38,461 bases of DNA from Burkholderiales bacterium. Its GTDB lineage: Bacteria; Pseudomonadota; Gammaproteobacteria; Burkholderiales; Burkholderiaceae_C. The stretch lies in the NCBI GenBank assembly GCA_947372465.1, contig CANBTT010000029.1, positions 1-38,461 on the forward strand, given 5' to 3'. The position numbers and the translations under genes are program-made. Each line of letters opens with the position of its first letter. Position 1 is the first letter of the stretch. Under the pieces are notes generated by a model, which had not been told where the DNA came from, did no database searches, and saw nothing but the letters and a program-made list of their open reading frames with translations. Shown here piece by piece: positions 17,385-34,167 of the stretch.

Positions 17385-17423
17385 TCTTGATTTTTATAGA
17401 CTCTTATACTGAACTGAACAACC

Positions 17424-18266
17424 ATGCGAATCATTGACCTGCATTGTTACCCTGGGACTCAAACTTGGATTGACTCACAAGGCCCTTATCCGGCCGAATT
17501 GGCCAGGTACTGGAAAAGAGACTGGGTGGCCAAGAGTGAAGAGGATGTGATTGCTGAATTCACCCAGGCTGGAGTACAAGCCTGTTTGGTGGCGTTGGAT
17601 CTGGAGACAACGGTCGCCTCACCACCTTGCACGAATGAATACGTTCATGGCATGTGGCAACGCCACCCAGACCGTGTCATTCAGTGCTGGGGGGCTGTAG
17701 AGCCCGCAAAAGGTGAGATCGCGATTCAACAAGCTAAAAAAGCGGTCAAAGAGTTGGGCTTCATTGGCTTTCACTTTCATCCCATTATGCAGCACTTTGC
17801 TGTCAACGACAGGCGCCACTACGACCTCTTTGAAGTCATCAACGAACTCGGTGCCGCAGTGATGGTGGACGTGGGTACAACCGGCATGGGGGCCGGCATG
17901 CCAGGCGGCAACGGCGCAAGAGTGCGACATGCCCACCCCTCGCACATCGATGACTTGGCGGCAGACTTTCCCAATTTAAAAATCATCATGGCACACCCCG
18001 GTTGGCCTTGGGTGGAGGAGACCACGGCTGTCGCCTTGCACAAAGGCAACGTCTACTGGGAGATGTCGGGCTGGGCGCCCAAGCACTTTCCTGGTAACTT
18101 GAAGGTGGATATTCGCGGTCGACTCCAAGACAAGATCATGTTTGGCAGCGACTATCCCAGTTTGCCCTATGAGCGCATCATGCGTGAATGGTCAGAGTTG
18201 GGTTACAAAGATGAGGTGATGGAGAAAATCATGCACGGCAACGCTGAACGCGTTCTTGGACTTTAA
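17424..18266 (+). CDS. Amidohydrolase-2 family (metal-dependent hydrolase), altered metal site
   Basis: A 280-aa TIM-barrel protein of the amidohydrolase-2 (ACMSD/LigJ-like) family. Usual landmarks are MAHPGWPW (H191) and FGSDYP (D243). The first motif is DLHCYPG, that is H7-x-Y9 instead of H-x-H, and the strand that usually offers a second His reads VMVDVGTTG (D149). FHFHP gives H117 and H119. So the metal site differs from the textbook one. The 'VDVGTTGMGAGMPGG' region recalls hydrolases that cleave aryl-beta-ketoacyl-CoA thioesters (CouO type) in phenylpropanoid catabolism; that link is from memory. The neighbours (CoA ligase, SDR, crotonases) fit such a role. No ribosome binding site is evident. 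Confidence 0.8.
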   Translation: MRIIDLHCYPGTQTWIDSQGPYPAELARYWKRDWVAKSEEDVIAEFTQAGVQACLVALDLETTVASPPCTNEYVHGMWQRHPDRVIQCWGAVEPAKGEIAIQQAKKAVKELGFIGFHFHPIMQHFAVNDRRHYDLFEVINELGAAVMVDVGTTGMGAGMPGGNGARVRHAHPSHIDDLAADFPNLKIIMAHPGWPWVEETTAVALHKGNVYWEMSGWAPKHFPGNLKVDIRGRLQDKIMFGSDYPSLPYERIMREWSELGYKDEVMEKIMHGNAERVLGL

Positions 18267-18289
18267 CCTTTAAAGAAATACACTCAAAG

Positions 18290-19123
18290 ATGTCAAACGC
18301 CTTCGATCCCTCTAAGCAAAGCACCGATGCACCCATTCAGTTTGCACTGGAGGGGCATGTTGCAGTGCTCACCTTGAACAGAGCTGCCACACGAAACGCC
18401 TTAAGTGGTGAAGAAATGTTTCTTGCTTTCGAGTCGATTTTTGCTTACATGAACCAAAACACCCAAATCCGCGCAAGTGTACTGACTGGCAGTGGAACGG
18501 CCTTTTGTTCTGGCGGCAACATTGCTGAAATGCGTGACAAAGAGGGCATGTTCAAGGGAGGCCCCACTGAGATTGCACAAAATTACAAAAAAGGCATACA
18601 ACGAATCCCTCGCGCTTTTCAAACCTTGACGGTGCCCATGATCGCAGCTGTCAATGGTGCGGCGATCGGTGCTGGAAACGACCTCGCTTGCATGTGTGAC
18701 ATTCGCTTGGCGAGCGAAAAAGCGGTGTTTGCCGAGAGTTTTGTAAAGGTGGGCATCATCCCTGGAGACGGTGGATGTTGGCTTTTGCCCAGGGTGATTG
18801 GCTACGCCCATGCGGCCCAGATGGCGCTGAGTGGTGACAGCATCGATGCCAAGGAAGCATTGAGGATCGGACTGGTCACGAAAGTGGTGGCACCTGAAGA
18901 ATTGATGAAAGAGGCGATGCTCGTTGCTCAAAGCATTGCCAAGAACCCGCCTCAAGTCTTGCGCTGGACCAAGCAGTTGATGCAAGAAGCCAGGGGCAGC
19001 ACTTTGGACCAGGCGCTGGAGCGCGCGGGTGAGTTCCAAGGCCTGGCGCATCAAACACAAGATCACATGGAAGCATTGAATGCTTTTTTTGAAAAGCGTG
19101 AACCTCAATTTTCTGGACATTGA
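18290..19123 (+). CDS. Crotonase-family protein without the two catalytic glutamates
   Basis: A 277-aa enoyl-CoA hydratase/isomerase family member. The oxyanion-hole motifs FCSGGN and NGAAIGAGNDLA are clear. Compared with rat enoyl-CoA hydratase, Glu144 is replaced by Asp (GAGND) and Glu164 by Phe (AESFVKVG), while an Asp appears in IIPGDGGCW, close to the position of the isomerase Asp of PaaG-type enzymes. So simple hydration is doubtful and isomerisation, a retro-aldol or a C-C hydrolase reaction is possible. It lies 23 bp after the amidohydrolase gene and directly before another crotonase gene, in one run. Confidence 0.88.
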   Translation: MSNAFDPSKQSTDAPIQFALEGHVAVLTLNRAATRNALSGEEMFLAFESIFAYMNQNTQIRASVLTGSGTAFCSGGNIAEMRDKEGMFKGGPTEIAQNYKKGIQRIPRAFQTLTVPMIAAVNGAAIGAGNDLACMCDIRLASEKAVFAESFVKVGIIPGDGGCWLLPRVIGYAHAAQMALSGDSIDAKEALRIGLVTKVVAPEELMKEAMLVAQSIAKNPPQVLRWTKQLMQEARGSTLDQALERAGEFQGLAHQTQDHMEALNAFFEKREPQFSGH

Positions 19124-19193
19124 GACCATTGCTTTGGATCGATTGCCTTTGCCTTTGCTTGGCAAGACCACACTTAAAGAAAGTCATTGTTTC

Positions 19194-19964
19194 ATGAGCC
19201 CTCAAGTCTTGATCAGAGAAAGCGTTGTAGAAGGCGTTGCTGTGCTTCGCTTGAACCGTCCAGAGGTGCTCAATGCCCTCAATTTAGAGCTTCGTCGCAC
19301 ATTGGCGCAGGTGTTCACTGATTTGGATCGCGATGACACGGTGAAATCCATTGTGTTGGCTGGATCGGCCAAGGCCTTTTGCGCGGGTGCCGATCTCAAT
19401 GAATACGTCGATGCAAAGCCCATGGAAATCGTTGCTCGTCAAATGGGTGGCTTGTGGAGCGCCATCAGTTCGTGCTCCAAGCCCGTGGTCGTGGCCCTTA
19501 GAGGTTTTGCACTTGGGGGCGGCTTGGAGTTGGCCATGCACGGTGACATCATTGTGTGTTCTGAGTTGGCCAAGATGGGGCAGCCTGAGGTGCAAATTGG
19601 CTTGATGCCTGGAGGAGGCGCCACCCAACGCCTCACGCGCGCGGTCGGTAAATTCAAGGCCATGAAATGGCTTTTAACGGGCGCACTGTTCTCGGCCAGG
19701 GAAGCCTTTGACATGGGACTGGTCAGCGAAGTGGTGCCCGACGAGGAGGTGGATGCCAGGGCCTTGCAGTTGGCCAAGCAATTGGCCAAGGGCCCTCAGC
19801 AAGCGATTCGATCCATCAAACAATCTGTTTTGCAAAGCATGAATGTGCCCCTTGAACAGGGCTTGGAGTTTGAGAGAAAATCTTTTCAGCTGCTGTTTGC
19901 AACCGATGACAAAACAGAAGGCATCCGCGCGCGTTTAGAAAAAAGAGACGCAAAATTTAACTGA
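19194..19964 (+). CDS. Enoyl-CoA hydratase (catalytic glutamates present)
   Basis: A 256-aa crotonase; ATG 19194 gives the standard family length, while an upstream extension would run into the previous gene. It has FCAGADL, GFALGGGLELA (first Glu) and GQPEVQIGLMPGGGATQRL (second Glu). This is the complete catalytic pair of trans-2-enoyl-CoA hydratases, unlike the preceding paralogue. With the ligase and SDR it could hydrate an enoyl-CoA such as a cinnamoyl-CoA or a ring-opened unsaturated acyl-CoA. It is the last gene of the forward run; a strong hairpin follows. Confidence 0.92.
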   Translation: MSPQVLIRESVVEGVAVLRLNRPEVLNALNLELRRTLAQVFTDLDRDDTVKSIVLAGSAKAFCAGADLNEYVDAKPMEIVARQMGGLWSAISSCSKPVVVALRGFALGGGLELAMHGDIIVCSELAKMGQPEVQIGLMPGGGATQRLTRAVGKFKAMKWLLTGALFSAREAFDMGLVSEVVPDEEVDARALQLAKQLAKGPQQAIRSIKQSVLQSMNVPLEQGLEFERKSFQLLFATDDKTEGIRARLEKRDAKFN

Positions 19965-20025: not shown

Positions 20026-21051
20026 TCATGCCAGTGCCATGCTGTCCTCAAACGCTGGCATCACTTCAGATTCAAAGCTTTCAAGAGAGTACCGAGACTC
20101 CTCTAAGCTCAAATCTCCAAAAGCAAAGCGCGTCAAGATATAGTTCACGCCTGTGATCTCTATTTCCCGTTCCAACTGCTCGCGCACCTGCGCGGAGGTG
20201 CCGACCAACACGATGCCACCTTTGACGGCTGCGTCGTAGTCTTCAGGGATGGAGTACTTGGTCATGGGGTTGCCATTGGCTCGCCACAAATACTGCAAGC
20301 TTTGGTACCATTTGTCAAACCCCTTTTTGCCCAATGCATAGGCTTTTTCATAACTCTCGGCGATCACAATGTGCCGGCCTAGTCCCATCTTGGGCATGTC
20401 TTGCAGATCAGAATTTTGCTCGGCCCAAACTTCCCTGTACCGGTCCGTGATGGCTTTGACGGGCGCACCCGGTCCGTTGCAAACAATGTTGACATTGTTT
20501 TGAGCAGCCCAAGGGACTGCATGGGGCTGAGACATGCCGTACCAAATGGGCGGAGTGGGTTTTTGTATGCATTCAAGCTCGATGGGCACATTTTTGAAGT
20601 TGAAATGCTCGCCTTCAAAATTGATGAGCCGCTCTTTGAGTCCCATCATCACCACATCAAAGGACTCGATGTAGAGTTTGCCTGAGTTCTCTGCATTCAC
20701 ACCAAAGTAGCCCATCTCATAGGGTGAACTCCCGCGACCGATGCCCAGCTCCAAGCGCCCGCCACTCATTTGGTCAAGCATGCAGACCTCTTCAATGATG
20801 CGGATGGGGTGTGTCAGGCTCAGCGTGTACACCAAAGGTCCAAAGCGCAGTCTTTTGGTTCTTTGAGCGACGGCGGCCAAAAACACGCTGGGTGAGGACG
20901 CCATGCCAAGCGGCGTGCCATGGTGTTCGGCAATGTGGTAAGCATAAAAGCCTGCACGGTCATAAATTTCCGCAAGCTTTAAACGATTTTCAAAATGGTC
21001 TTGAATAGAGACCTGACCGCGGTCAAGGTGATCAAAAACGCCAAATTTCAT
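20026..21051 (-). CDS. LLM-class (luciferase-like) flavin-dependent monooxygenase
   Basis: A 341-aa bacterial-luciferase-like oxidoreductase, which uses FMNH2 or F420 supplied by a partner. MKFGVFDHLDRG and the ERAGFYAYHIAEHHGTP-type segment near residues 30-48 are typical, followed by SGGRLELGIGRGSSPYE and a C-terminal domain common in this family. The ATG at 21057 has AAGGA with no spacing, whereas ATG 21051 has it 6 nt away, so I use 21051. It starts 2 bp after the cupin gene stop. No flavin reductase is in the window. The substrate is unknown; such enzymes often hydroxylate or cleave aromatic or heteroaromatic compounds. Confidence 0.88.
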   Translation of the reverse strand: MKFGVFDHLDRGQVSIQDHFENRLKLAEIYDRAGFYAYHIAEHHGTPLGMASSPSVFLAAVAQRTKRLRFGPLVYTLSLTHPIRIIEEVCMLDQMSGGRLELGIGRGSSPYEMGYFGVNAENSGKLYIESFDVVMMGLKERLINFEGEHFNFKNVPIELECIQKPTPPIWYGMSQPHAVPWAAQNNVNIVCNGPGAPVKAITDRYREVWAEQNSDLQDMPKMGLGRHIVIAESYEKAYALGKKGFDKWYQSLQYLWRANGNPMTKYSIPEDYDAAVKGGIVLVGTSAQVREQLEREIEITGVNYILTRFAFGDLSLEESRYSLESFESEVMPAFEDSMALA

Positions 21052-21053
21052 GT

Positions 21054-21593
21054 TCATTCCTTGTTCAGTGGATCAATGCCATCGATCAACACAAAGGCAA
21101 CTCGACAGATGTCGTTGGAGTTGTTCACCCAGGCGTGATTGGTGCCTTGCTGCACCATGATGTCGCCAGTTTTCATGTGGACCTCAGAATCATCCAGGAG
21201 CATATCAATTTCGCCCGACAATACAAACGCGTAGTCAACGCTGGCTGTTCGGTGCATGAACGCGTGTCTGGCTGGGGTGCTGGCCGTGTCCTTCACGCCC
21301 ATCTCTTTTAAGATGTCCTCTTGAGAAACAGCAGCGCTTTGCTTGCTGACAGGGGGGAAGTCCACCACGCGCAAAACAGAGCCGCCTTTTGGGGGGGGCA
21401 CACCAATGGTTCGATCGGCTAGATCGCGTCGCGTGTCGAGTTTTGCAGGGGTTTCATCGGTCACCCAGATCAAAGTGCTCACCAGTCCAGTGCCAGGTCG
21501 CACTTTTTGGTTGGGCGCAAACCCATCCATTTCAACAATGGCTTTGCCTTGGTCGTCGTGACCGGTGACGATTCTTCTGATGCGATGATCCAT
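21054..21593 (-). CDS. Cupin-domain protein
   Basis: A 179-aa single-cupin protein. The C-terminal barrel has RTASVDYAFVLSGEIDMLLDD, then MKTGDIMVQQGTNHAWVN with the G-D-x(4-6)-G-x-x-H pattern, and ends VAFVLIDGI. A likely metal-binding His in the second motif is kept (TNHAWVN); the first motif has few His, so the metal site is incomplete. Gentisate dioxygenases are two-cupin proteins of about 350 aa, so this is not a typical one. It is directly upstream of the LLM monooxygenase gene and most likely shares its transcript, possibly as a helper or regulatory protein. The start codon has no visible ribosome binding site. Confidence 0.82.
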   Translation of the reverse strand: MDHRIRRIVTGHDDQGKAIVEMDGFAPNQKVRPGTGLVSTLIWVTDETPAKLDTRRDLADRTIGVPPPKGGSVLRVVDFPPVSKQSAAVSQEDILKEMGVKDTASTPARHAFMHRTASVDYAFVLSGEIDMLLDDSEVHMKTGDIMVQQGTNHAWVNNSNDICRVAFVLIDGIDPLNKE

Positions 21594-23048: not shown

Positions 23049-24359
23049 ATGAACGGCATGACCCACACACTCAACAGCAAGGTGCCAGGCTTGACTTGGC
23101 CAAAAGAAGACTTTTCAAGGGTGCCCTACGAGGTCTTTACGGATCCGCAAATTTTTGAAAGAGAAAATAAAAAAATTTTTCAAGGCGAGGTTTGGAATTA
23201 CCTGGCCCATGAGGTAGAGCTGCCCCATCCTGGAGATTTCGTCACCAATTGGGTCGGCAGCACGCAAGTGGTGGTGGTTCGTGACAAGGATCAAAGCATC
23301 AGTGCTTTTGAGAACTCCTGTGCTCACCGAGGCGCACAACTGGTCACTCAAGTGCGAGGAAACATGGTCAAAGTTTCGTGTCCCTATCATCTGTGGGCCT
23401 ACTCGTTAAAGGGGGATCTGATTGGCGTGCCCATGGCCCAAGGGGTGAACGGCAAGGGCGGCATGCCCAGTGGTTTTAGCAAAGCAGATCATGGCTTGAA
23501 AAAGCTTGTGGTGCAAACCCATGGGGGCTTGATTTTTGGCACCTTTTCAAAGCAGCCGCCCAATTTACAAAGTTTTTTGGGTCCCCATTCTTTGTCTCAA
23601 ATTGATCGTTTGCTTGTGCAAAGAAAGCCCAAAGTCTTGGGCTATTTGAGGCAAAGAATTCCAGGCAACTGGAAGTTGTACAACGAAAATGTGAGAGATC
23701 CTTACCACGGCTCCTTGCTGCACCAGTTTCAAGTCTCCTTTGGTTTGCAACAACCCACCATGAAGGGGGGGATCAAATTGGATGCCGATTTAAAGAACAC
23801 CTGGAACCATTCAATTTTGAGTGAAACAGACAAAGACAACCAACAATTGATGGAAAAAGCTTTTGAGGGGACAGGCAAATACAACCCCAATATGAAAATG
23901 GCCGATCCAGCCCTCACGCAAGTGCCCTTGGATTTGGCCGATGGTTACAAGACGACCATTTTGTCAATTTTCCCCACTCTGATTGTCGCTCAAGTCGACA
24001 ACACCTATGCGATTCGTCACTTGCGACCCAAGGGGCCCGACATGGTGGAGTTGCACATCACGTATTTGGGCTTTGAGGGGGATACTCAAAAGCAAACGCA
24101 TGACAAACTTTTAACCGCCAATTTCATTGGCCCTGCAGGATACATCTCCTTGGAAGATGGGGAAGCGTTGCGCTTGGTTCAAGAGGGCATCAAGTCTCGT
24201 GCGCCTGGCACCCACGAAGTGCTTGAAATGGGCGGCGTTGGGCCCATCGAGGACACGGACTATTTGTCACAAGAAATTTCAATTCGTGGGTTTTGGTCGC
24301 ATTATCACAAGATCATGGATTTTCAAGCCAATGATGAACCCACAGAGCGCACCCAATGA
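23049..24359 (+). CDS. Aromatic-ring-hydroxylating dioxygenase, alpha subunit (NagG/TphA2-like)
   Basis: Rieske non-haem iron oxygenase large subunit, 436 aa. Rieske motif: C91-x-H93 (CAHRGAQ) and C111-x2-H114 (CPYHLW). Catalytic iron: D217, H220 and H225 in ENVRDPYHGSLLH; the third carboxylate is probably in ISLEDGEAL. The N-terminal third, with GVPMAQGVNGKGG and RIPGNWKLYNENVRDPYH, resembles salicylate 5-hydroxylase and terephthalate dioxygenase large subunits. So it probably mono- or dihydroxylates a benzoate-type acid. The beta subunit follows 58 bp downstream. No ferredoxin or reductase is in the window, so electrons must come from another locus. Confidence 0.93.
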   Translation: MNGMTHTLNSKVPGLTWPKEDFSRVPYEVFTDPQIFERENKKIFQGEVWNYLAHEVELPHPGDFVTNWVGSTQVVVVRDKDQSISAFENSCAHRGAQLVTQVRGNMVKVSCPYHLWAYSLKGDLIGVPMAQGVNGKGGMPSGFSKADHGLKKLVVQTHGGLIFGTFSKQPPNLQSFLGPHSLSQIDRLLVQRKPKVLGYLRQRIPGNWKLYNENVRDPYHGSLLHQFQVSFGLQQPTMKGGIKLDADLKNTWNHSILSETDKDNQQLMEKAFEGTGKYNPNMKMADPALTQVPLDLADGYKTTILSIFPTLIVAQVDNTYAIRHLRPKGPDMVELHITYLGFEGDTQKQTHDKLLTANFIGPAGYISLEDGEALRLVQEGIKSRAPGTHEVLEMGGVGPIEDTDYLSQEISIRGFWSHYHKIMDFQANDEPTERTQ

Positions 24360-24417
24360 ATCCTTTTTTTGAACCCACAAAAGGCTGGCTTTCTCTCTGT
24401 GATGTAGGGGTTGAAGG

Positions 24418-24897
24418 ATGAATGCGCTCGAACTCGATTTGAAAGCACGACAATTTTTCAATGTCTATGCGCAAAGTCTTGACCAAGAAAACTTTGCACT
24501 TTGGCTCACGCTCTTTGAGCCCAAGGCGTGCACCTACGAGGTCCTCTCTAAAGAGAACAAAGATTTGGGACTGCCTTTGCCCATCATGGGGTGTTTTACG
24601 TTTGGCATGATCCAAGACCGCGTGGCCATGTTGGCCAAAGGCGTGTTGACTTTTCGCCGCTCATCGTTGCTTAGACAAGTCAGCAATGTTCAGGCCCACA
24701 GGCTTGATGACGCAAGCATCCAAGCCAAGGCCAATTTGGTGGTTTACCAATCAAGCGAGGAGGGCGTGTCTTCTCTCTACATGGTGGCAAGGTATGAGGC
24801 CGTCTTGCTGCAAGGGACGGGAGACTTTAAAATTCAAAACATGTCGGTCGTCGTCGAGTCCTTTGGGATCGACACGATGCTGGCGGTACCGCTTTAA
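24418..24897 (+). CDS. Aromatic-ring-hydroxylating dioxygenase, beta subunit
   Basis: A 159-aa NTF2-fold small subunit of a Rieske oxygenase. Family features are the opening LDLKARQFFNVYAQSLDQENFALWLTLF, where family members read 'F...YA..LD..d...W..lF', the central RRSSLLRQVSN (usually 'R..h.isnv'), and YMVARYEAVLLQ. AGGGG is 7 nt before ATG. Its pairing with the alpha subunit and the alpha3beta3 assembly are established for this family. It shares the transcript with the alpha gene and converges on the glutamine-synthetase-like gene 42 bp further on. Confidence 0.88.
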   Translation: MNALELDLKARQFFNVYAQSLDQENFALWLTLFEPKACTYEVLSKENKDLGLPLPIMGCFTFGMIQDRVAMLAKGVLTFRRSSLLRQVSNVQAHRLDDASIQAKANLVVYQSSEEGVSSLYMVARYEAVLLQGTGDFKIQNMSVVVESFGIDTMLAVPL

Positions 24898-24939
24898 GCG
24901 TGTGCCCGCATGGCCTTGTCGATGAAGGCTAAGAGGAAC

Positions 24940-26433
24940 TTAAATGCGACTGAAGTACTCTTGCGCATCAAATTTTTTAGGATCCAATGCACTTTCAAAG
25001 CGTTTGAGTTCTGCGTGCTTGAGGGTGCTGTAGTAGCGCACAAACGAAGGACCGAAGCTTTCTTGCATGAGCGCGCTCTTTTCAAAGGCTTCAAGCGCCA
25101 ACTGAAAAGTCTTGGGTATGCGCTGTGTCACGCTTTTTTCTTCATCCCCAACCCCATACGGTGATTGGGTAGCAAGGGGCGTTTTTTGAGTCTTGTTGAT
25201 GCCATCAAGGCCCGCATAAATTTGTGAGGCCATGTACAAATAAGGATTGGCGGCGGGTTCACCCAGGCGATTTTCAATTCGACTGGATGGATCCATCGGC
25301 TCACCAATGACTCTGAGCATCGCGCCCCGATTGTCTCGCCCCCAAAGAATGAACTCTGGCGCCAGCGCATTGGGCTGAAAGCGACCGTAGCCGTTGAGGG
25401 TTGGCGTGCACAAAAGCGTGGTGTCCTTGGCGTTGTTGAGCAAACCAGCCAAATAATGCTCGCCCACCTCAGACAAAGAATACTGCGCCTCCAAGGGGCT
25501 TGCACCCTCCTTGAGGGCCGTTCTTTGAAAGGCATTGGCATTGGTTTTTAAATCCACCAAGGATTGGTGCAAGTGCCAACCGCTTGACATGATGCAATCA
25601 AAGGGGGGGCGGCACATGAAGGTTGCGTGGTAACCAGCGCGAGCCAATGCTTGTCGAACCGCGCTCCTAAAAAGCACCATGTTGTCTGCCGCTTCCAACG
25701 CGTTGCTGGGTGCAAAGACGGCCTCAACTTGACTGGGGCCGAATTCGGTTTCCAAGGAGATGAGGGGCATACCCAGGCCCTGGGCGGTGTGTTGCACAAT
25801 CGCCATGGGCTCATCACACAGGTCGCTCCAAGACTCGGAGAGCAAGTTGTAACCTGGGTGAATCAATTGCACTTCTGGCGCATTCCCTGGCCACGATGCC
25901 AAATATGGGTTGAGTTGCTTGCTTTGGTCGGTGATTTTGTAGATGTGGAACTCAATTTCAAGTCCACATTTGAGTCCAAATCCATGTGACTTGAGACTGT
26001 TCAATGCACGCTCCAGCACCCGCCTTGAGTCCATGGGAACGGGTTGCCCGTCTTGAAACCATGCTTGGCATTGAAGCCAAGCGGTTTTGGGTGACCAGGG
26101 CAGGCGCTTTAGACTTTTGGGATCTGGTAAAAGCGTCACGTTGTTGCCTTGACCAAAGCCGTCCAAGCCTTGGGTGCCCCCAGGCTCGAAGACTTTAAAG
26201 GCGGTGCGGTCTGAGCTGTCTTTGAGCAGCAAAGTGCTGACCATGCCAACGCCAGATCTGAGGGCTTGTTTGGCAAAGTCGAGCATCAAGGTTTTGGTGC
26301 GGGTCGTGCCGTGAATGTCGCACCAAGAAAAGCGCACCTGATCCACCTCCCATTCATCGATCTTTTTTAAGCAAGCTTGAAGGGCATTTTCACGCTCCTT
26401 GTCGTCTAAGCCGCAGAGGGTTGAGAAGTGCAT
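24940..26433 (-). CDS. Glutamine synthetase family ligase (gamma-glutamylamine/anilide-type)
   Basis: A 497-aa type-I-like glutamine synthetase fold protein. I place the start at ATG 26433; the frame goes further into the Rieske gene end but that part is shadow. Motifs: E159-I-E161 (GLEIEFHIYK), H287-L-H289 (SSGWHLHQSL), NGYGRF and R385-x-E387-x-R389 (SRIENRLGEPAANPYL). The C-terminal residues YYSTLKHAELKRFE match the GS tail. Paralogues in this family make gamma-glutamylpolyamines (PuuA) or gamma-glutamylanilide (AtdA1/TdnQ). Its neighbours are Rieske oxygenases, as in aniline clusters, but no GATase partner is present here. A true glutamine synthetase is unlikely in this setting. The substrate is unknown. 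Confidence 0.86.
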   Translation of the reverse strand: MHFSTLCGLDDKERENALQACLKKIDEWEVDQVRFSWCDIHGTTRTKTLMLDFAKQALRSGVGMVSTLLLKDSSDRTAFKVFEPGGTQGLDGFGQGNNVTLLPDPKSLKRLPWSPKTAWLQCQAWFQDGQPVPMDSRRVLERALNSLKSHGFGLKCGLEIEFHIYKITDQSKQLNPYLASWPGNAPEVQLIHPGYNLLSESWSDLCDEPMAIVQHTAQGLGMPLISLETEFGPSQVEAVFAPSNALEAADNMVLFRSAVRQALARAGYHATFMCRPPFDCIMSSGWHLHQSLVDLKTNANAFQRTALKEGASPLEAQYSLSEVGEHYLAGLLNNAKDTTLLCTPTLNGYGRFQPNALAPEFILWGRDNRGAMLRVIGEPMDPSSRIENRLGEPAANPYLYMASQIYAGLDGINKTQKTPLATQSPYGVGDEEKSVTQRIPKTFQLALEAFEKSALMQESFGPSFVRYYSTLKHAELKRFESALDPKKFDAQEYFSRI

Positions 26434-26509
26434 GGTGGAGGACCTGCTGGTTGGTGTGTCAATGAAAGGGGCAAACTCGAAGTGCAGTGGCGCGCGAGGG
26501 TGTCTCGGC

Positions 26510-27886
26510 TCAAGAGGCGGCGGTGCTTTGGCCAAGCCATTGGCAGGCCTCTTGTTTTCGCTGCACTTGTGCTCGCCACCAATCCGACCACTGCTCAGCC
26601 GGGGCGACACCGTCCACGGTGTCGGGCCCAAAGCGCATGTTGGCGATGGCGCTGCTGGACACGCCAGGCGCGGGAGCGCCATTTTGAGTGTCTTCAATGG
26701 CCTTTAGAAGGACCCGTCGGTTGGCCATGATGAGCACGTCCGAGGTGCCCAAATGCTCTTGTGTTCTGTCTTGGATGGCCCCCATGCTCTCAACGGCCCA
26801 TTGGTCGTGCACATTGATGTCTTCCTCACCCATCCCAAGATAAGTTTGCTCGACTTGCTCTTTGGCATTGAAGCCCCAACGGTTGTGGGCGCCTGATTTT
26901 GGAATGTAGTCTGGCAATGAAATGAACTGCAAGCGTTGTTCACGCATGGCCTCTTTGTTCAATGGCTTGTCAAAACTTGTGAAAAAAGAATACCAATACG
27001 TGTGTTCATCATCGACTGGCACATGAAACTGAGTGATGGTCAAACGCTCTGACAGCGGAATCACAAACGTTGCTGGGAAAATGGATTGGGTCACTCGCAC
27101 ATGCGTTAGGGACTCGTTCATGCTCCGAAGAGACGTGATCTCCATGCCATAGGGCTTGCTCTCAAAGCTGATGCTCGGTTGGCAAAACTCACGCATGATC
27201 TTGGTCATGGGCCACTTTTGCCCACCGATCTCGCCTGCACTTGCACTCCTGAACTGTTTGCCAGCATCGTTGTCACCAATGTTTTGAAGATCCTCGTCGT
27301 TTAAAAAACGATGCAAAAACGAGGGGTGAGCTGGGTCAATGCCCACCTCAAATGCTTGCAGCCAATTGGCGTTCCAGCGTCCCTTGAATGCAAAGCTGTG
27401 GCTGGACGGGGCTTCAAAACAATCGAACTTTGGAAAGTCGGGCGGCGTTTGGTTCGCCGGCCCCATCCAAGCGAAAATGACGCCTGCTTTTTCGATGACA
27501 GGATAGTGGCGTTGTGTCACGTGCTCTTTGAGTCTTGAGCCCGTGGGCTCTGCCGGTGTGTCCAAACAGGTCCCTGAGACATCGAACTTCCAGCCATGAA
27601 AAGGGCACCTCAAACCATTGCCCTCGTACCTTGCAAAAGACAGATCGACACCTCGGTGCGCACAATGCTTGTCCAGGAGTCCAAATTGACCGTCTTGGTT
27701 TTTAAACAGAACCAGATCCTCGCCAAAGACTCGAACGCTTTTGACCGGACGCTCTTGCATCTTGGGGTCAAGTCTTGGGTCAAATTCGTCGACCAATGCG
27801 ATCGGTTGCCAGTACAGGCGAAGCAACTGGCCACAAGCGCTTTGGGGGCCCACTTGCGTCAACAGTGCATTTTGTTGGGCTTTCAT
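26510..27886 (-). CDS. Rieske oxygenase, phthalate 4,5-dioxygenase-like
   Basis: A single-component-type Rieske oxygenase, 458 aa from ATG 27886. I use this start because AAGGAG lies 9 nt upstream; ATG 27895 touches the same site with no spacing. Rieske ligands are C75/H77 (CAHRG) and C94/H97 (CPFHGW). Catalytic iron: D184, H187 and H192 in GIDPAHPSFLH. The C-terminal region with ESMGAIQDRTQEHLGTSD matches the phthalate-dioxygenase subgroup. No partner reductase is near. It is followed 76 bp later by the GS-like gene in the same direction, and the two form an obvious minus-strand unit. The substrate is probably an aromatic carboxylate or amine. Confidence 0.92.
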   Translation of the reverse strand: MKAQQNALLTQVGPQSACGQLLRLYWQPIALVDEFDPRLDPKMQERPVKSVRVFGEDLVLFKNQDGQFGLLDKHCAHRGVDLSFARYEGNGLRCPFHGWKFDVSGTCLDTPAEPTGSRLKEHVTQRHYPVIEKAGVIFAWMGPANQTPPDFPKFDCFEAPSSHSFAFKGRWNANWLQAFEVGIDPAHPSFLHRFLNDEDLQNIGDNDAGKQFRSASAGEIGGQKWPMTKIMREFCQPSISFESKPYGMEITSLRSMNESLTHVRVTQSIFPATFVIPLSERLTITQFHVPVDDEHTYWYSFFTSFDKPLNKEAMREQRLQFISLPDYIPKSGAHNRWGFNAKEQVEQTYLGMGEEDINVHDQWAVESMGAIQDRTQEHLGTSDVLIMANRRVLLKAIEDTQNGAPAPGVSSSAIANMRFGPDTVDGVAPAEQWSDWWRAQVQRKQEACQWLGQSTAAS

Positions 27887-28244
27887 GGCGTTCATCTCCT
27901 TCTTGGGTCGCGGTGCGCCCTGGTTTGTTCGGATGTGCCCTTGCACCTGATTAAAACGCATGGGCTTTCTTTGTTTTATTATGGGCTATTGCTGTGGATT
28001 TTTTTCATGCTTTGATTTTTCTTTTGCATCATGGGGTGCGTGTTTTTTCTAGATTGCTGACCCCCGTTTGCAAAGGGGTGACCTTGGTGTGCAAGATGCG
28101 CGCGAGCCCATGGGTCTTGAAAAGCTTGGTTATTCTGGGGTCCAAGAGACTTTTTCAAGGGTAATTCTTAGGAGAAAAGAAGGGCTTTTTTGTTAAAATT
28201 TGGCGCTGTTAATGAAGATTTTTTCATTCCTACTAGGAGAAACT
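27887..28244. other. Divergent region between the Rieske and ABC transporter genes
   Basis: About 360 bp holding no gene. It contains the dyad at 28063-28078 (below) and the ribosome binding site AGGAG (28235-28239) of the substrate-binding protein. I could not fix a -10/-35 pair in either direction. Confidence 0.45.
28063..28078. promoter_or_regulatory. Possible operator dyad upstream of the ABC importer
   Basis: CCCGTTTGCAAAGGGG is a 16-bp palindrome with one mismatched pair around the centre TTTGCAAA. It lies between the divergent oxygenase and importer genes, where a shared regulator could act. Confidence 0.35.
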
Positions 28245-29444
28245 ATGAAATTTGCCCTTAAAGCCCTTGTTTTAGCAGGCTTTTCAGTCTTGAACCTGGG
28301 ACTGGGTTCAGTGGTCTTGGCCGAAACGGTCAAAATTGGTTTTATCAGCTCTTACAGCGGCGCCGCTGCAGCGCAAGGGGATCAGCTCGACAAGGGCGTG
28401 AAGCTTTACATGAAGCTCAATGGTGACAAACTGCCCCCAGGTGTGAAGGTGGAGTTGATCACCCGTGACGACACAGGCCCCAACCCTGATGTGGCCAAAC
28501 GTGTTGCGCAAGAGTTGATCGTTCGTGACAAAGTGCAGTTTTTGACGGGTTTGGTTTGGACGCCCAATATGGCCGCCATTGCGCCCTTGACCACAGAGGC
28601 CAAAGTGCCTTTCATCAGCATGAATGCGGCGGGTGCACGCGTGATGAACAATGCGCCTTACATGACCCGTGTGTCGTTCACGCTTTGGCAATCGGCTTAT
28701 CCCCTGGGGCAGTGGGCGGCAAAGAAATACAAAAAAGCCTACACAGCAGTGAGTGACTTTGCACCTGGTCACGAAGCAGAGGAGGGGTTTATCAAAGGCT
28801 TCAAAGAGGGTGGCGGCGAAGTGTTGGGCAGCGTGCGTGTCCCCTTGGCCAACCCAGATTTTGTGCCCTTTATGCAAAGAATCAAGGACGCCAAACCTGA
28901 TGTGCTCTTTGGGTTCAACCCCGCAGGCAAGGCCGCAACGGCGATGATGAAGTCTTATGCCGATTTGGACTTGCCAAAGGCTGGCGTGAAGTTCATCGGA
29001 ACGGGTGACATCGTGACCGACGAGGAACTCCAAGGCATGGGCGACGTGGCACTGGGGGTGACCACTGTGCACCATTACTCTGCGGCCTCAGATCGCCCAG
29101 CCAACAAAGCCTTTGTCGCTGCTTACAAAAAGGAATACGGTGCTGACTTGAATCCTGGCTTCATGGTGGTTGCGGCTTGGGATGCAATGGACGCTATTTT
29201 TGCAGCCATTCGTGAGCAAGGCGGCAAAGTCGATCCAGACAAGTCGATGGAGTTTTTCAAGAAATGGAAAAGCACGACAAGCCCCAGAGGCGCCTTCTCA
29301 ATTGACCCAGAGACGCGAGACGTGATCAATCCTGAATATTTAAGGGAAGTCAAAAAAGTCGGCGGTAAACTGGTCAATGTGGAGATAGAAACCATTGGCA
29401 CGGCTGTGAAAGATCCCATGAAAGAGGCGGACAAGAAGAAGTAA
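28245..29444 (+). CDS. ABC importer periplasmic substrate-binding protein (LivK-like, HAAT family)
   Basis: A 399-aa periplasmic receptor, type I fold, of the branched-chain/aromatic acid uptake family. The start at ATG 28245 has AGGAG 5 nt upstream. The signal peptide core is LKALVLAGFSVLNLGLGSVVLA. The mature protein opens VKIGFISSYSG, with LITRDDTGPNPDVAKRVAQELI and MNAAGARVM typical of the Peripla_BP_6 domain. In aromatic degraders such receptors bind benzoates, phenylpropanoids or amides rather than leucine. It is the first gene of the five-gene importer unit. A double hairpin follows, which would give it a higher transcript level than the membrane subunits. Confidence 0.93.
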   Translation: MKFALKALVLAGFSVLNLGLGSVVLAETVKIGFISSYSGAAAAQGDQLDKGVKLYMKLNGDKLPPGVKVELITRDDTGPNPDVAKRVAQELIVRDKVQFLTGLVWTPNMAAIAPLTTEAKVPFISMNAAGARVMNNAPYMTRVSFTLWQSAYPLGQWAAKKYKKAYTAVSDFAPGHEAEEGFIKGFKEGGGEVLGSVRVPLANPDFVPFMQRIKDAKPDVLFGFNPAGKAATAMMKSYADLDLPKAGVKFIGTGDIVTDEELQGMGDVALGVTTVHHYSAASDRPANKAFVAAYKKEYGADLNPGFMVVAAWDAMDAIFAAIREQGGKVDPDKSMEFFKKWKSTTSPRGAFSIDPETRDVINPEYLREVKKVGGKLVNVEIETIGTAVKDPMKEADKKK

Positions 29445-29452
29445 AATGGCCC

Positions 29453-29513
29453 AAGCTTGAACAGCAAGCTTGCAATGCATAGCCCTTAAGTGCATCTTGG
29501 CACCTAAGGGCTA
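29453..29513 (+). terminator. Tandem hairpins between receptor and permease genes (attenuator)
   Basis: The first is AAGCTTG-N5-CAAGCTT (29453-29471). The second is TAGCCCTTA (29480-29488) with TAAGGGCTA (29505-29513), an inner GTGC/GCAC stem, and TTTT after it. Placed after the receptor gene, they probably stop part of the transcript and protect the receptor mRNA, a common way to make more receptor than permease. Confidence 0.7.
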
Positions 29514-29538
29514 TTTTCTCGATGAGAGCTGAACAATC

Positions 29539-30414
29539 ATGGAATCTTTTTTGTCGTCACTGGTGAGCGTTGCCTTTCATGGCCTGGCCTATGGCATGAT
29601 TTTGTACGTCATCTCTGTAGGCCTGTCGGTGACCATGGGGCTGATGGGGTTTACCAATTTGGCGCATGGGGTCTTTGCCATGACGGGTGGCTATGTGCTG
29701 GTGGTGTCCTTGTCCAAGTTTGACATTCCCTTTCCTTTGGCCTTGTTGCTGTGTTTTGGCTTGGTGGCTTTGGTGAGCGTGGTGCTTGAGCGCACCTTGT
29801 ACGCCAGACTTTACGGCGAGACAGAGCTCGAGCAAGTGCTTTTCACCATCGGTTTGATTTATATGTCGGTGGCCGCGGCGAGATTGATTTTCGGCACACT
29901 GCAGCAGCCCGTCATTTTGCCCGAGTACTTGAAGGGACAATTTTCGCTCCTTGGTCGAGACTTCCCGGCTTACCGTGTCTTTTTGATTGTGTTCACCTCT
30001 GTGATCATTGCGGCCCTTTGGTTTGGTGTGGAGAGAACCATTTGGGGTGCCAAAGTGCGTGCTTCAGTTGATAACCGAGCCATGGCACAGTCGATTGGCA
30101 TCAACACGAAGAGATTGTTCACCATGACCTTTGCTGTGGGCAGTGGCTTGGCTGGTCTGGGTGGAGGCCTGGGCGCGGAAATTGTGGCGATTCAGCCCAC
30201 CTATCCCTTTGAGCAGTTGGTCTTCTTTTTGATCGTTGTCTCGGTGGGGGGATTGGGCAGTTTGCGGGGGCCCTTTTTGGCGGCGCTTTTGATTGGTGTG
30301 ACCGACACGGCGTGCAAGTATTGGCTGCCGCAGTTTGGTGCGTTTTTTATCTACATTGCAACCATTGGATTGTTGCTTTGGAGGCCGCAAGGCTTATTGG
30401 GGAAGAGATCATGA
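29539..30414 (+). CDS. livH: Branched-chain-amino-acid-type ABC permease (LivH-like)
   Basis: A 291-aa inner-membrane permease with about eight hydrophobic segments. Family marks are GLSVTMGLMGFTNLAHGVFAMTGGY near the N-terminus and the EAA-type cytoplasmic loop around VRASVDNRAMAQSIGINTKRLF, followed by GSGLAGLGGGLGAE. The C-terminus ends in LLWRPQGLLGKRS, typical of LivH. Its ATGA overlap with the next permease gene couples translation. With LivM it forms the membrane channel of the importer. Substrate type is set by the receptor, so an aromatic acid rather than leucine is likely given the neighbours. Confidence 0.93.
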   Translation: MESFLSSLVSVAFHGLAYGMILYVISVGLSVTMGLMGFTNLAHGVFAMTGGYVLVVSLSKFDIPFPLALLLCFGLVALVSVVLERTLYARLYGETELEQVLFTIGLIYMSVAAARLIFGTLQQPVILPEYLKGQFSLLGRDFPAYRVFLIVFTSVIIAALWFGVERTIWGAKVRASVDNRAMAQSIGINTKRLFTMTFAVGSGLAGLGGGLGAEIVAIQPTYPFEQLVFFLIVVSVGGLGSLRGPFLAALLIGVTDTACKYWLPQFGAFFIYIATIGLLLWRPQGLLGKRS

Positions 30415-31415
30415 GTCAACTGGTGGGTTACACGGTCGACACGCGTGTTCGGTGGACCGAATATTTGCCATGGGTGTTGGCGCTGTTGGTGTATTTTTTC
30501 TTGCCCGACTATTTGTCTTTGGGGGCGAGGGTGCTTACCTATATATTGTTTGCCCTGTCTTTGGATTTGATCATTGGGTACGCAGGCATCATCACCTTGG
30601 GGCATGCTTCATTTTTTGGTCTAGGCGCTTACATCACGGGCATTTTGTCAGCCAAGCTGGGCGTCACAGATCCCTTGGTGCAATTGTTGGCCAGTGCTTT
30701 AGGTGCGGGTTTGCTGGGCTTTGTAACGGGTGCGGTCATTTTGAAGATGAAGGGCCTGACGCAGTTGATGCTGACCTTGGCGATTTCTGCCCTGTGTTTG
30801 GAAGTGGCCAACAAGGCAACCTTTATCACGGGCGGGGCAGATGGTTTGTCAGGGATGGAGATTGCGCCCATCCTGGGCGTTTTTAAATTTGACCTCTTTG
30901 GCAAGACGGCTTATTTGTATTGTTTGTTTTTGCTCTTTTTTGCTTGGATTGTGATTCGTCGACTGATCTATTCTCCTTTTGGTGTGTCTTTGATGGGTGT
31001 GCGTGAAAACAGTGCTCGCATGCACGCGATCGGGGCGCCTGTCTACAAAAAATTGATGACCGTGTACACCCTCTCTGCCTTGATTGCGGGTGTGGCGGGC
31101 GCACTGTTGGCGCAAACCAATCAATTTGTCGGTTTGAATGTGTTGGGTTTCGAGCCCTCAGGAGAGTTGTTGGTGATGTTGATTTTGGGCGGCGTTGGGC
31201 GCTTGTATGGTGCCTTTGTGGGGCCGCTTGTTTTTTTGCTTGCACAGGACTATTTGGCCAAACAGTTCCCCGAATATTGGTATTTTGGCATTGGCCTCTT
31301 GCTGGTGGTGGTGGTCCTCTTTGCGCGCGGGGGGGTTCTGGGTCTCATGGATAAATTCTTGTCTCAATGGGGAAAAAAAGCAAAAGGCAAACAAGCAGGA
31401 TCTGAAACATCATGA
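30411..31415 (+). CDS. livM: Branched-chain-amino-acid-type ABC permease (LivM-like)
   Basis: A 334-aa inner-membrane permease. ATG 30411 overlaps the LivH stop by 4 bp; the frame extends upstream but the overlap and GGAAGAG site support this start. It has YAGIITLGHASFFGLGAYITG in the first half and the EAA loop MGVRENSARMHAIGAPVYKKL in the second, both LivM hallmarks. The last 20 residues are Lys-rich and cytoplasmic. It pairs with LivH. Its stop overlaps the LivG start by 4 bp. The set is complete and looks intact. Confidence 0.93.
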   Translation: MSQLVGYTVDTRVRWTEYLPWVLALLVYFFLPDYLSLGARVLTYILFALSLDLIIGYAGIITLGHASFFGLGAYITGILSAKLGVTDPLVQLLASALGAGLLGFVTGAVILKMKGLTQLMLTLAISALCLEVANKATFITGGADGLSGMEIAPILGVFKFDLFGKTAYLYCLFLLFFAWIVIRRLIYSPFGVSLMGVRENSARMHAIGAPVYKKLMTVYTLSALIAGVAGALLAQTNQFVGLNVLGFEPSGELLVMLILGGVGRLYGAFVGPLVFLLAQDYLAKQFPEYWYFGIGLLLVVVVLFARGGVLGLMDKFLSQWGKKAKGKQAGSETS

Positions 31416-32161
31416 CGCATGCACTGGAAACCCGTGGTTTGTTCAAAAGCTTTGGTGCCTTGACGGTCGCTGACAACATCGATTTTCAGTTAGAGGTCGG
31501 TGCGCGCCATGCCTTGATTGGTCCCAATGGAGCGGGCAAGACCACCTTTGTGAATTTGCTCACTGGGCGATTGACGCCCTCTAAAGGGCAGGTCTTCCTT
31601 GCAGGCGAGGAGGTCTCAAACTTGACGCAATCTGAGCGCGTCAAAAAGGGCTTGGGCCGCACCTTTCAAATCAACACCTTGTTTGGCAAGATGAGCGTTT
31701 TGGACAATGTGGCTTTGGGCGTTGCTGAGAGACTGGGCCTGTCTTCAGGTCTTTGGAGAACGGCCAAGTCCTACGCCAATGTCACAGAGGAGGCCATGTC
31801 GATGCTCGAGTTGCTAGGCATTCAGGCCGATGCGCAACACATTGTGAAAGATTTGCCTTATGGCAAGCAGCGCTTGGTGGAGATTGCCATTGCCTTGGGA
31901 CTCAAGCCCAAAGTGCTGCTGCTTGATGAGCCCGCCGCAGGCGTGCCTTCGATGGAGTCTGAGCGCATCTTGAGTGCATTGGATATCTTGCCCAAAGACA
32001 TTGCCATCATGATCATCGAACACGACATGGATTTGGTCTTTCGATTTGCAAAAAAAATCACGGTCTTGGTCCAAGGTGCTGTCTTGTGCGAGGGCACGCC
32101 CCAAGAGATCTCAAAAGACACACGAGTGCACCAAGTGTATTTAGGAGAGCAGCATGCATGA
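31412..32161 (+). CDS. livG: ABC transporter ATP-binding protein (LivG-like)
   Basis: A 249-aa ATPase of the Liv type. Walker A is GPNGAGKTT, the LivG-specific long insertion (RTFQINTLFGKMSVLDNVALGV) is present, the signature helix reads YGKQRLVEIAIAL (LSGGQ-like position modified as in LivG), Walker B is LLLDEPAAG, and the switch His is in IIEHDMD. It overlaps LivM by 4 bp and LivF by 8 bp, so the five genes are one operon. It powers import together with LivF. Confidence 0.94.
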   Translation: MTHALETRGLFKSFGALTVADNIDFQLEVGARHALIGPNGAGKTTFVNLLTGRLTPSKGQVFLAGEEVSNLTQSERVKKGLGRTFQINTLFGKMSVLDNVALGVAERLGLSSGLWRTAKSYANVTEEAMSMLELLGIQADAQHIVKDLPYGKQRLVEIAIALGLKPKVLLLDEPAAGVPSMESERILSALDILPKDIAIMIIEHDMDLVFRFAKKITVLVQGAVLCEGTPQEISKDTRVHQVYLGEQHA

Positions 32162-32864
32162 ACCCCATCAGTCGTTGAAGCTCTCCGGGGTGTGGGCGGG
32201 GTATGGAGAAACCTTGGTGCTTGAAGAGGTGAGCTTTGAGGTGCCAGAAAAAGGCGCCTTGGCGATCTTGGGACGCAATGGTGTGGGCAAGACGACCTTG
32301 CTGGCAACCATCATGGGGCATACCCAAATGCAGCAAGGCAAGATTCTCTACCGTGGTCAAGAGATACAGGGCTTGCCCGTTCATGAAAGAAGTCGCTTAG
32401 GGATTGGCTATGTGCCGCAAACGCGAGACATCTTCCCCTCGCTGAGCGTTGAGGAGAATTTAAAAGTTGCTGCTCGCACGGGCCAATGGCCTTTAGAGCG
32501 GGTGTATGACCTCTTTCCCAGGTTGTACGAGCGGCGGATCAATATGGGCAACCAACTCTCAGGGGGTGAGCAACAAATGCTCTCCATTGGGCGAGCCTTG
32601 ATGGGAGACCCGTCCTTGTTGCTCTTGGATGAGCCCATGGAGGGCTTGGCGCCAGTGATTGTGGAGATGCTGCTTGGTGTCTTGCGCCGCTTGATTCACC
32701 AAGAGTCCTTGACCGTGGTGTTGGTGGAGCAATCGGCCAAATTGGCGCTTCAAGCCACAGAGCAAGTCATTGTGCTCAGTCGTGGGCAAATCATTCACCA
32801 AGGCCAGAGTGAGGCCTTGCTTGCCGACTCGCATCTCTTGTCCGAATTGATCGTTGCCCACTGA
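32154..32864 (+). CDS. livF: ABC transporter ATP-binding protein (LivF-like)
   Basis: A 236-aa ATPase, the second of the pair. Walker A GRNGVGKTT, the Q-loop region LGIGYVPQTRDIFPSLSVEENL, signature LSGGEQQMLSIGRAL, Walker B LLLDEPMEGL and VVLVEQSAKLALQATEQVIVL are all in place. It is the last gene of the importer unit, overlapping LivG by 8 bp, and a terminator-like hairpin follows before the FAD monooxygenase gene. All motifs are intact. Confidence 0.94.
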   Translation: MHEPHQSLKLSGVWAGYGETLVLEEVSFEVPEKGALAILGRNGVGKTTLLATIMGHTQMQQGKILYRGQEIQGLPVHERSRLGIGYVPQTRDIFPSLSVEENLKVAARTGQWPLERVYDLFPRLYERRINMGNQLSGGEQQMLSIGRALMGDPSLLLLDEPMEGLAPVIVEMLLGVLRRLIHQESLTVVLVEQSAKLALQATEQVIVLSRGQIIHQGQSEALLADSHLLSELIVAH

Positions 32865-32943: not shown

Positions 32944-34167
32944 ATGAACACAAACCATGCAAGCGCCCAGCCAATCCTTGTTGTAGGAGGGGGTGTGGCG
33001 GGTTTGTCCACGGCCTTGGCCCTTGGACTGAAAGGCTTGCCGGTTCAACTCTTGGAGCAAGCCGATCAAATTGGTGCCATTGGTTACGGCGTTCAAATGG
33101 GGCCCAACGTGGTCCCCATGCTCAGAGCTTTGGGGGTTGAGAAGGAGGTGGTTGAGGCCTCCTATTTGCCGCCAGACATTGAACTGCTGGATGCTTACAC
33201 CAGTGAGCGTTTGACGCATTTGCCCTTGAAGACCCCCGCCTTTTTGAACCGCTACCAAGGTTTGCCCTATTTGGCCATTCACCGTGTGGACTTGCACGAG
33301 GTGTTGCTCAAAGCGTGTGCCAAGTTACCTCACGTGCATTTGAATCAATCCACCACGGTCATCGATTTTGAGCAAGATCACAATGGGGTGCGTGCGATGG
33401 GCTCTGAGGGTCAAGTGTTTGTTGGACGCGCTTTGATTGCTGCGGATGGACTGCGCTCTAAACTGAGGGCCAAATTGCATCCAGAAGATTCACCTGTCGA
33501 GAGCGGGTATGTTGCGCACCGCTGCTTGCTGCCCATGTCGCAGTTGCCGGATGTCCTCAAGTCCCGCGCTGGCGTGACGATGTGGACGGGCAAAGGTTTT
33601 CATGTGATTTATTACCCATTGAGAGGCTCGAGTGTTTTAAACATGGTGCTGGTCGTTCAGCTTCCTCAAGGCGTGCAGACGGTGAGCGATCAGGCCTATG
33701 CAGATCACATCGAGCGCATCAAGTCCGAGGTGAGCGAGCCCGCTAGAGCGGCCATGGGGCACATGGATTTGAAGAGGCGTTGGGCCATTGCTGACAGAGA
33801 ACCCCTTCGCGGCTGGAGCGACAAGCGCGTCACGCTCCTTGGTGACAGTGCCCACGCCACCTTGCAGTCCTTTGCACAAGGTGCGTGCATGGCGATGGAG
33901 GACTCGGTGGTCTTGGCTGAGTTGCTTGGCAACTCGGCCTTGGATGTTCAAGAGGCCTTCAAGGCGTTTGAGAAAAAGAGATTCTTAAGAACCGCGCGTG
34001 TTCAATTGCAGTCACGCAGTTTGTGGGAGGATTTTCATTGCGGTGGGCATTGGGCTGCGGTGAGAACGGCGCGGTTTACAGAACAAAAAACGGAAGACTT
34101 CTTTCGCTGTTTGGATTGGCTTTGGACGCCCATTGATCTTTCTCTCGCTCAGGTAAAAGGCGCATGA
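32944..34167 (+). CDS. FAD-dependent monooxygenase (3-hydroxybenzoate 6-hydroxylase/salicylate hydroxylase-like)
   Basis: A 407-aa class A flavoprotein monooxygenase. FAD motif G15-x-G17-x2-G20 (VVGGGVAGLS); RVDLHEVLLKAC; DG motif LIAADGLRSKLR; GD motif VTLLGDSAHATLQSFAQGACMAMED. The last stretch is nearly the same as in 3-hydroxybenzoate 6-hydroxylases, which give gentisate, and salicylyl-CoA 5-hydroxylases are also in this superfamily. So para-hydroxylation of a hydroxybenzoate (free or as CoA ester) is the best guess. The gene starts 80 bp after LivF, read the same way, beyond a hairpin. No strong ribosome binding site is visible. Confidence 0.88.
   Translation: MNTNHASAQPILVVGGGVAGLSTALALGLKGLPVQLLEQADQIGAIGYGVQMGPNVVPMLRALGVEKEVVEASYLPPDIELLDAYTSERLTHLPLKTPAFLNRYQGLPYLAIHRVDLHEVLLKACAKLPHVHLNQSTTVIDFEQDHNGVRAMGSEGQVFVGRALIAADGLRSKLRAKLHPEDSPVESGYVAHRCLLPMSQLPDVLKSRAGVTMWTGKGFHVIYYPLRGSSVLNMVLVVQLPQGVQTVSDQAYADHIERIKSEVSEPARAAMGHMDLKRRWAIADREPLRGWSDKRVTLLGDSAHATLQSFAQGACMAMEDSVVLAELLGNSALDVQEAFKAFEKKRFLRTARVQLQSRSLWEDFHCGGHWAAVRTARFTEQKTEDFFRCLDWLWTPIDLSLAQVKGA

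Follow-up and report, generated by a model that had tools for sequence, protein, structure and literature searches.

In Hydrogenophaga intermedia PBC, degradation of 4-aminobenzenesulfonate is started by the sadA-sadB-sadC genes (4-aminobenzenesulfonate 3,4-dioxygenase), according to the accessible parts of PMC5632844, which also name Novosphingobium resinovorum SA1 as a degrader of this compound. The same parts describe the sad operon as fairly conserved in the Hydrogenophaga genomes reported at that time and the sad genes as conserved across strains with presumably little exposure to xenobiotics; the authors expected the original substrate to be an unidentified natural analogue. Excerpts of PMC11335346 present NpaA1 of the 1-naphthylamine pathway, for which PDB entry 8wwu is cited, as an arylamine-glutamylating ligase and propose a glutamyl organic amide synthetase (GoaS) group. 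Here we describe a 38,461-nt stretch of DNA from a freshwater bacterium (the whole stretch is hereafter the window, and its genome G000), in which a glutamine synthetase (GS)-like glutamate-amine ligase gene lies beside a phthalate-type Rieske oxygenase gene. Judged by sequence comparison, the two are homologues of sadB and sadA, respectively.

Together, the SadA/SadB-like proteins probably catalyze gamma-glutamylation of an acidic arylamine followed by dioxygenation of its ring. Our leading candidate for the substrate, put forward tentatively, is 4-aminobenzoate, a vitamin building block, with protocatechuate as the product. The genes concerned are listed below, with Pfam scores in bits.

23049-24359, + strand: Rieske alpha subunit, 436 aa (Rieske 64, Ring_hydroxyl_A 52)
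24418-24897, + strand: Rieske beta subunit, 159 aa (Ring_hydroxyl_B, PF00866, 29.9)
24940-26433, - strand: GS-like (SadB-like) glutamate-amine ligase, 497 aa (Gln-synt_C 244.7)
26510-27886, - strand: SadA-like phthalate-type Rieske terminal oxygenase, 458 aa (Rieske 62.5, LigXa_C 81.1)
28200-32864, + strand: ATP-binding cassette (ABC) transporter of the branched-chain-amino-acid type (binding protein, two permeases, two ATPases)

An earlier, sequence-only reading of this DNA had placed the GS-like, phthalate-type Rieske and alpha/beta genes here, and Pfam matches and coordinates confirmed all four. The mechanical open reading frame (ORF) of the ligase reaches 26697, overlapping the upstream gene; we set the start at the ATG at 26433 because it fits the 497-aa length of 10 of the 11 closest homologues. 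A ribosome-binding-site-like GGAG precedes the SadA-like start at 27886. Compared with homologues in loci L031, L032, L033 and L013, dN/dS was 0.035-0.21 for all four genes wherever dS was finite; SadA comparisons with L032 and with L013 (a 108-aa fragment) were saturated, several other dS values exceeded 1, and alpha/beta are absent from L033. All four frames are thus under purifying selection and are more than chance ORFs.

The SadA/SadB-like pair and its relatives

The SadA-like stop lies 76 nt from the ligase start on the same strand, in keeping with the earlier description of the two genes as coupled. To place this pairing, genome contigs were scanned and the best 80 of at least 576 loci (hereafter the 80 Burkholderiales loci) were compared, using stretches of up to 10 kb on each side (many contigs were shorter). 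A SadA-type gene accompanied the ligase in 79 of the 80, Hydrogenophaga included, so the claim of a new arrangement was not supported: this pairing had already been described as sadA-sadB in work on 4-aminobenzenesulfonate. SadC-type ferredoxin genes were found in 65 loci and were missing from 15, among them L031-L033 and three on contigs shorter than 5 kb (L065, L086 and L101); a GntR gene was present in 37. The link to sad was drawn through Hydrogenophaga loci, strain SA1 and gene descriptions, without the PBC sequences themselves. Plasmid pSA3 of the sulfanilate degrader SA1 carries a matching Rieske and GS-like pair, its Rieske protein being 49.8% identical to the SadA-like protein of the window.

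Within the genus of the window, the ligase occurred in 25 of 84 genomes (E up to 1e-100). Five genomes form the window clade, namely G000, G040 (locus L031), G036 (L013), G054 (L033) and G081 (L032), and no ferredoxin match adjoined the pair in this clade (in G036 the pair is on a short contig). A ligase tree of 98 rows, built by a quick method with the duplicates L012-L030 left out, joined the window and L031-L033 in one group (support 100), nested in an 81-row Burkholderiales group that includes the Hydrogenophaga rows (support 100). Among plasmids, 685 records had a ligase match; 18 were fetched, and the 13 best loci (H1-H13) carry the SadA/SadB-type pair. Plasmid ligases of the classical aniline and naphthylamine clusters were 37-39% identical to that of the window, and closer ones (41-45%) came from Cupriavidus, Caballeronia, Paraburkholderia, Methylobacterium and Polaromonas JS666, with a phthalate-type Rieske gene directly before the ligase.

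The best PDB match of the ligase was NpaA1 (8wwu, 333 bits), with any other sequence at 135 bits or less, which supports the view of the sequence-only reading that the GS-like enzyme may glutamylate arylamines. Its metal and glutamate positions are intact. Opposite the GlnA flap glutamate, which we take to be E327, the alignment has Leu, and so does NpaA1. The N-terminal loop (NpaA1 68-81, absent from type I GS) is present and is gapped in the genome's own GlnA. The substrate tunnel of such ligases runs between subunits, and we compared it in NpaA1 numbering, which agreed with the paper at V68, A69, I70, G71, P72, F75, M81, F86, V201, E232, E234 and W235. The excerpts of PMC11335346 describe F75' of NpaA1 as a tunnel-bottleneck and ring-contacting residue, the F75A change having almost abolished aniline activity. 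The window ligase keeps E232 and E234, has L201, F86 and F235, and carries Lys at position 75 and Arg at position 80.

All 107 ligases with a SadA-type Rieske match at their locus carry Lys75, and 104 of them carry Arg80. Four more family ligases, from loci without a usable SadA match (L013, L023, L070 and L099), also have Lys75, and the other five have Phe (L006, L009, L117 and L118) or His (L116). Because the 116 ligase rows are related by descent and include some genes fetched twice, we regard the lysine count as a clade-level pattern, not as 107 events.

By motif, the SadA-like oxygenase has Rieske ligands C75/H77 and C94/H97 and iron ligands H187/H192. Phthalate dioxygenase anchors phthalate by Ser182, Arg207 and Arg244 (PMC10511449, in the accessible parts). 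SadA R264 aligns with Arg244 and did not vary among the 100 rows, out of 107, that exceed 380 aa. Another Rieske oxygenase, TsaM, accepts both p-toluenesulfonate and 4-methylbenzoate (accessible parts of PMC10511449), and the same two-substrate range is given for its pathway in excerpts of PMC10579966, so a Rieske oxygenase can treat sulfonate and carboxylate groups as equivalent in its active site. VanB has acted as surrogate reductase for both TsaM and phthalate dioxygenase.

Proposed route and substrate

From the homology, gene pairing, residue pattern and conservation described above, we infer every chemical step, the substrate and the product. By analogy with NpaA1 and the aniline ligases, the ligase would use ATP to attach glutamate, by its gamma-carboxyl, to the amino group of an anionic arylamine. 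The phthalate-type oxygenase would then dioxygenate the amide-bearing ring carbon and its neighbor, as suggested by the aniline system, and the adduct would collapse to a catechol with release of glutamine. With 4-aminobenzoate the catechol would be protocatechuate, and a class III extradiol dioxygenase that could act on it is encoded beside ligK in this genome. The earlier suggestion of an aminobenzoate stands to the extent that an acidic arylamine of this kind fits Lys75 of the ligase and R264 of SadA.

The plasmid loci point to 4-substituted benzoates. DUF4863 (PF16155), now named PnbB in Pfam (4-hydroxylaminobenzoate lyase), was present in 6 of the 13 (L003, L004, L111, L112, L113 and L124), in records from Cupriavidus, Caballeronia, Paraburkholderia and Methylobacterium; L004 and L113 were detected by Pfam (201 and 214 bits) and the other four by tblastn to L004 (61-81%). 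Nitroreductase genes lie near PnbB in L003, L004, L111 and L113; L124 has one as well, judged by a 44% match. One plasmid locus, L115, carries pcaGH and further beta-ketoadipate genes, and five (L003, L004, L005, L112 and L124) carry a glutamine amidotransferase (GATase)-class gene, the expected partner of a gamma-glutamyl intermediate. Together, PnbB, pcaGH and GATase at these loci suggest gamma-glutamyl chemistry on 4-substituted benzoates toward protocatechuate.

In the genome of the window, ligK (399 bits, cut-off 304.5) lies near the class III extradiol dioxygenase beta subunit (569.7, cut-off 317), which scored 531 against the fused protocatechuate 4,5-dioxygenase model (cut-off 837); we read this cluster as putative protocatechuate 4,5-cleavage. 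Neither ring-cleavage enzyme was useful as a co-occurring marker: the extradiol model matched 75 of the 84 genus genomes (72 over cut-off) and intradiol dioxygenases were found in 62.

Several observations weigh against this interpretation. PnbB, pcaGH and GATase genes were found near none of the 80 Burkholderiales loci (GATase with three GATase-class queries), and 30 of these have instead a nearby match to the gentisate dioxygenase of L043; the extradiol dioxygenase says little, given its frequency in the genus. Position 235, an essential Trp in NpaA1, is Phe in the window ligase (as in the aniline-type L009). Glu357 and Asp50 are listed as lost in such ligases in the excerpts of PMC11335346, contrary to which none of the 116 rows lacks the Glu aligned with 357, and the window ligase has Glu opposite ammonium-site Asp50 (this alignment is uncertain). 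The rows behind the lysine and arginine counts are related and partly duplicated, and the counts are not independent events. At the other two phthalate anchors, Ser182 and Arg207, the HMMER alignment gives P188 and Met in the SadA-like protein, so that neither is conserved. The window has no adjacent ferredoxin or reductase gene, and its contig no Fer2 domain. In the open-access literature we found no demonstration of glutamylation by SadB and recognized no report of 4-aminobenzoate glutamylation.

With these points counted, we tentatively propose that SadA/SadB pairs serve mainly in natural 4-aminobenzoate catabolism, via gamma-glutamyl-4-aminobenzoate and 3,4-dioxygenation to protocatechuate, and were recruited by sulfanilate degraders; Lys75/Arg80 would act as a specificity switch between acidic and neutral arylamines, and in the lineage of the window the system would have been uncoupled from its own ferredoxin. 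The published sad genes posed the question of the natural substrate, to which the tunnel lysine and the PnbB neighborhood offer a concrete answer.

For reducing power, the oxygenase would have to draw on a ferredoxin and a reductase that are not linked to the pair. The genome's best SadC relative (C19:25598-25918) is 42% identical to a Hydrogenophaga SadC, and each of the other four clade genomes has a counterpart at 40-42%. It was rejected as a displaced SadC, since G035, G037 and G048, which lack a SadB match at E 1e-100, have relatives of it at 64-65%, and true SadC genes match it with lower scores; it may still be the donor. Although this unlinked ferredoxin is common to all five clade genomes, it was not assigned as the partner because its relatives are spread through genomes without SadB. 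In G000 and G054 the gene of this orphan 2Fe-2S ferredoxin (L119:7596-7949, on G000:C19) overlaps one for a TctC-type binding protein, and in G036 and G081 it lies 2-3 kb from the TctC gene; relatives occur widely in the genus. The JS666 ferredoxin reductase has a relative at G000:C6:36126-37259 (37%), and no reductase partner could be named, the best match being 34-39% in all eight genomes searched.

The ABC transporter adjoins the SadA-like gene, is divergent from it and is kept in L031-L033. Five related genes in the same order (46-57% identity) lie directly downstream of the sadA-sadB-ferredoxin-reductase genes on Polaromonas sp. JS666 plasmid 1, and by this analogy the transporter is probably the importer of the substrate.

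Alternative explanations and neighboring genes

The sequence-only reading took the alpha/beta Rieske pair as a possible part of the same route. We consider it rather probable that the two sets of genes are unrelated neighbors, the alpha/beta pair serving another aromatic-acid pathway (salicylate- or phthalate-like), which is compatible with the SadA/SadB-like route. The pair was found in only 2 of the 80 loci and in four of the five clade genomes, which leaves its part in the route unsupported, and it lies on the opposite strand; G054 (L033) lacks it, having only paralogues at 38-39%, yet keeps the SadA/SadB-like pair, the transporter and the flanking genes. On the other hand, alpha/beta are intact, under purifying selection in the three relatives compared and located at the same spot, converging on the ligase as the earlier reading had described, with 42 nt between the beta and ligase stops.

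The PDB entries closest to alpha were 7vju (344 bits), which is called simply a Rieske protein, 7q04, a terephthalate dioxygenase (342), and 7c8z, a salicylate 5-hydroxylase (328), in keeping with the earlier label of NagG/TphA2 type. Alpha/beta belong to the terephthalate dioxygenase/salicylate 5-hydroxylase/AndAc (TphA2/NagG/AndAc) group. Terephthalate dioxygenase presumably holds the carboxylates with Arg309 and Arg390, which we take to be chain positions 311 and 392 of 7q04; alpha keeps the first (R323), has Leu aligned with the second, and in that stretch reads more like salicylate 5-hydroxylase.

The next most plausible alternative, still a doubtful one, is the same SadA/SadB chemistry on another acidic amine, such as 4-aminobenzenesulfonate, 3-aminobenzoate, an aminosalicylate, or a natural amine that arises from lignin, from humic matter or in folate breakdown. 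The accessible parts of PMC5632844 assign 4-aminobenzenesulfonate to the sad genes as their substrate. 3-Aminobenzoate and an aminosalicylate stay candidates because of the gentisate dioxygenase matches and the missing PnbB, pcaGH and GATase genes at the 80 loci, 23 of which, L031-L033 included, also have a 3-hydroxybenzoate-6-hydroxylase-like gene. The window has such a gene at 32944-34167, an FAD monooxygenase nearest to 3-hydroxybenzoate 6-monooxygenase (345 bits, cut-off 459). The case for 4-aminobenzenesulfonate is weakened by the three intradiol dioxygenase frames of the genome, which at 315-328 aa each are longer than the two-subunit kind that opens 4-sulfocatechol. The sulfomuconolactone hydrolase model gave 211 bits (cut-off 500) for the single matching candidate among eight proteins scanned. 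Among the Hydrogenophaga genomes compared by Gan et al., moreover, 4-sulfocatechol genes occurred only in H. intermedia (accessible parts of PMC5632844).

It is very improbable that the GS-like protein is a standard ligase that joins glutamate to ammonia or polyamines and has nothing to do with ring oxidation: the GS fold, the matches to the models for type III GS and glutamylputrescine synthetase and the Glu tentatively aligned with Asp50 would fit such an enzyme, but the NCBIfam scores are far under their cut-offs (202 of 469.6, 194 of 650 and 191 of 429), a Rieske gene stands alongside at nearly all loci, the flap Glu is replaced by Leu, a separate GS gene exists (the one other GS domain in the genome, in an open frame of 476 aa) and a tunnel lysine would be expected to repel cationic amines.

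Elsewhere in the window, genes at 13775-19964 run in one direction and encode an FAH-family protein, an SDR, a 2,3-dihydroxybenzoate-AMP-ligase-like protein (515 bits, cut-off 724), an amidohydrolase and two enoyl-CoA hydratases. This set looks like a CoA-dependent aromatic or fatty-acid pathway and is largely syntenic in L031-L033 as far as the stretches reach. At 20026-21593, a luciferase-like monooxygenase gene overlaps a cupin gene by 4 nt, an arrangement kept near a TctC gene in L031-L033. By eye, 3482-9083 holds a heavy-metal-type RND efflux set (adaptor, CzcA/CusA-like pump and outer-membrane factor).

Comparison with known systems

Terephthalate dioxygenase, salicylate 5-hydroxylase and AndAc/AndAd are the nearest relatives of the alpha/beta pair among solved structures and curated models. 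Compared with the AndAc/AndAd anthranilate 1,2-dioxygenase, alpha and beta both score below the curated cut-offs (365 of 750 and 91 of 230 bits), and compared with terephthalate dioxygenase alpha has one of the two arginines. Unlike the terephthalate, salicylate and anthranilate oxygenases, the pair is on a contig without a ferredoxin domain.

The aniline dioxygenase (AtdA/TdnQ/DcaQ) and 1-naphthylamine (NpaA) systems likewise combine a Rieske oxygenase with a neighboring GS-like ligase from this group, at a ligase identity of 37-39%. The oxygenase of the window differs in being of the phthalate type without a small subunit of its own, and where the NpaA1 bottleneck is entirely aromatic (F75', F86' and W235), the window ligase has K75, F86 and F235. 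These systems also have a GATase. None was found among 20 window proteins scanned with Pfam (14 further listed ORFs lay outside the scan), and a JS666 GATase query, run without a positive control, found no relative in the window's genome or in any of the eight genomes searched. The earlier observation that this partner is missing therefore agrees with our searches; its absence, offered as a novelty, is normal for the lineage, though more distant plasmid loci (5 of 13) have a GATase-class gene. Set against the proposed GoaS group, the ligase has the N-terminal loop that type I GS lacks and keeps the metal and glutamate positions, and its ammonium-site pattern is mixed, with Leu aligned with the flap residue but Glu aligned with 50 and 357.

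The sad operon is the closest match. Like it, the window has a phthalate-type Rieske gene followed by a GS-like gene on the same strand. Best-stretch identities to ten Hydrogenophaga loci were 62-64% for SadA (78% for one fragment) and 56-59% for SadB, compared with about 50% and 42% for the SA1 pair. Unlike the sad operon, the window has no ferredoxin gene after the ligase, for which reason we did not file the pair as a sad operon, and no clear 4-sulfocatechol genes were seen in its genome; it has instead the convergent alpha/beta Rieske pair and the adjoining ABC transporter. On sequence grounds, the pair appears to work like a sad operon, being SadA/SadB-like without a ferredoxin neighbor. 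Its core is already known, from an operon for the degradation of a dye chemical, and the additions made here are the proposed lysine switch and the 4-aminobenzoate hypothesis, the tunnel lysine being a possible sequence rule that separates acidic-arylamine from aniline-type ligases in metagenomes.

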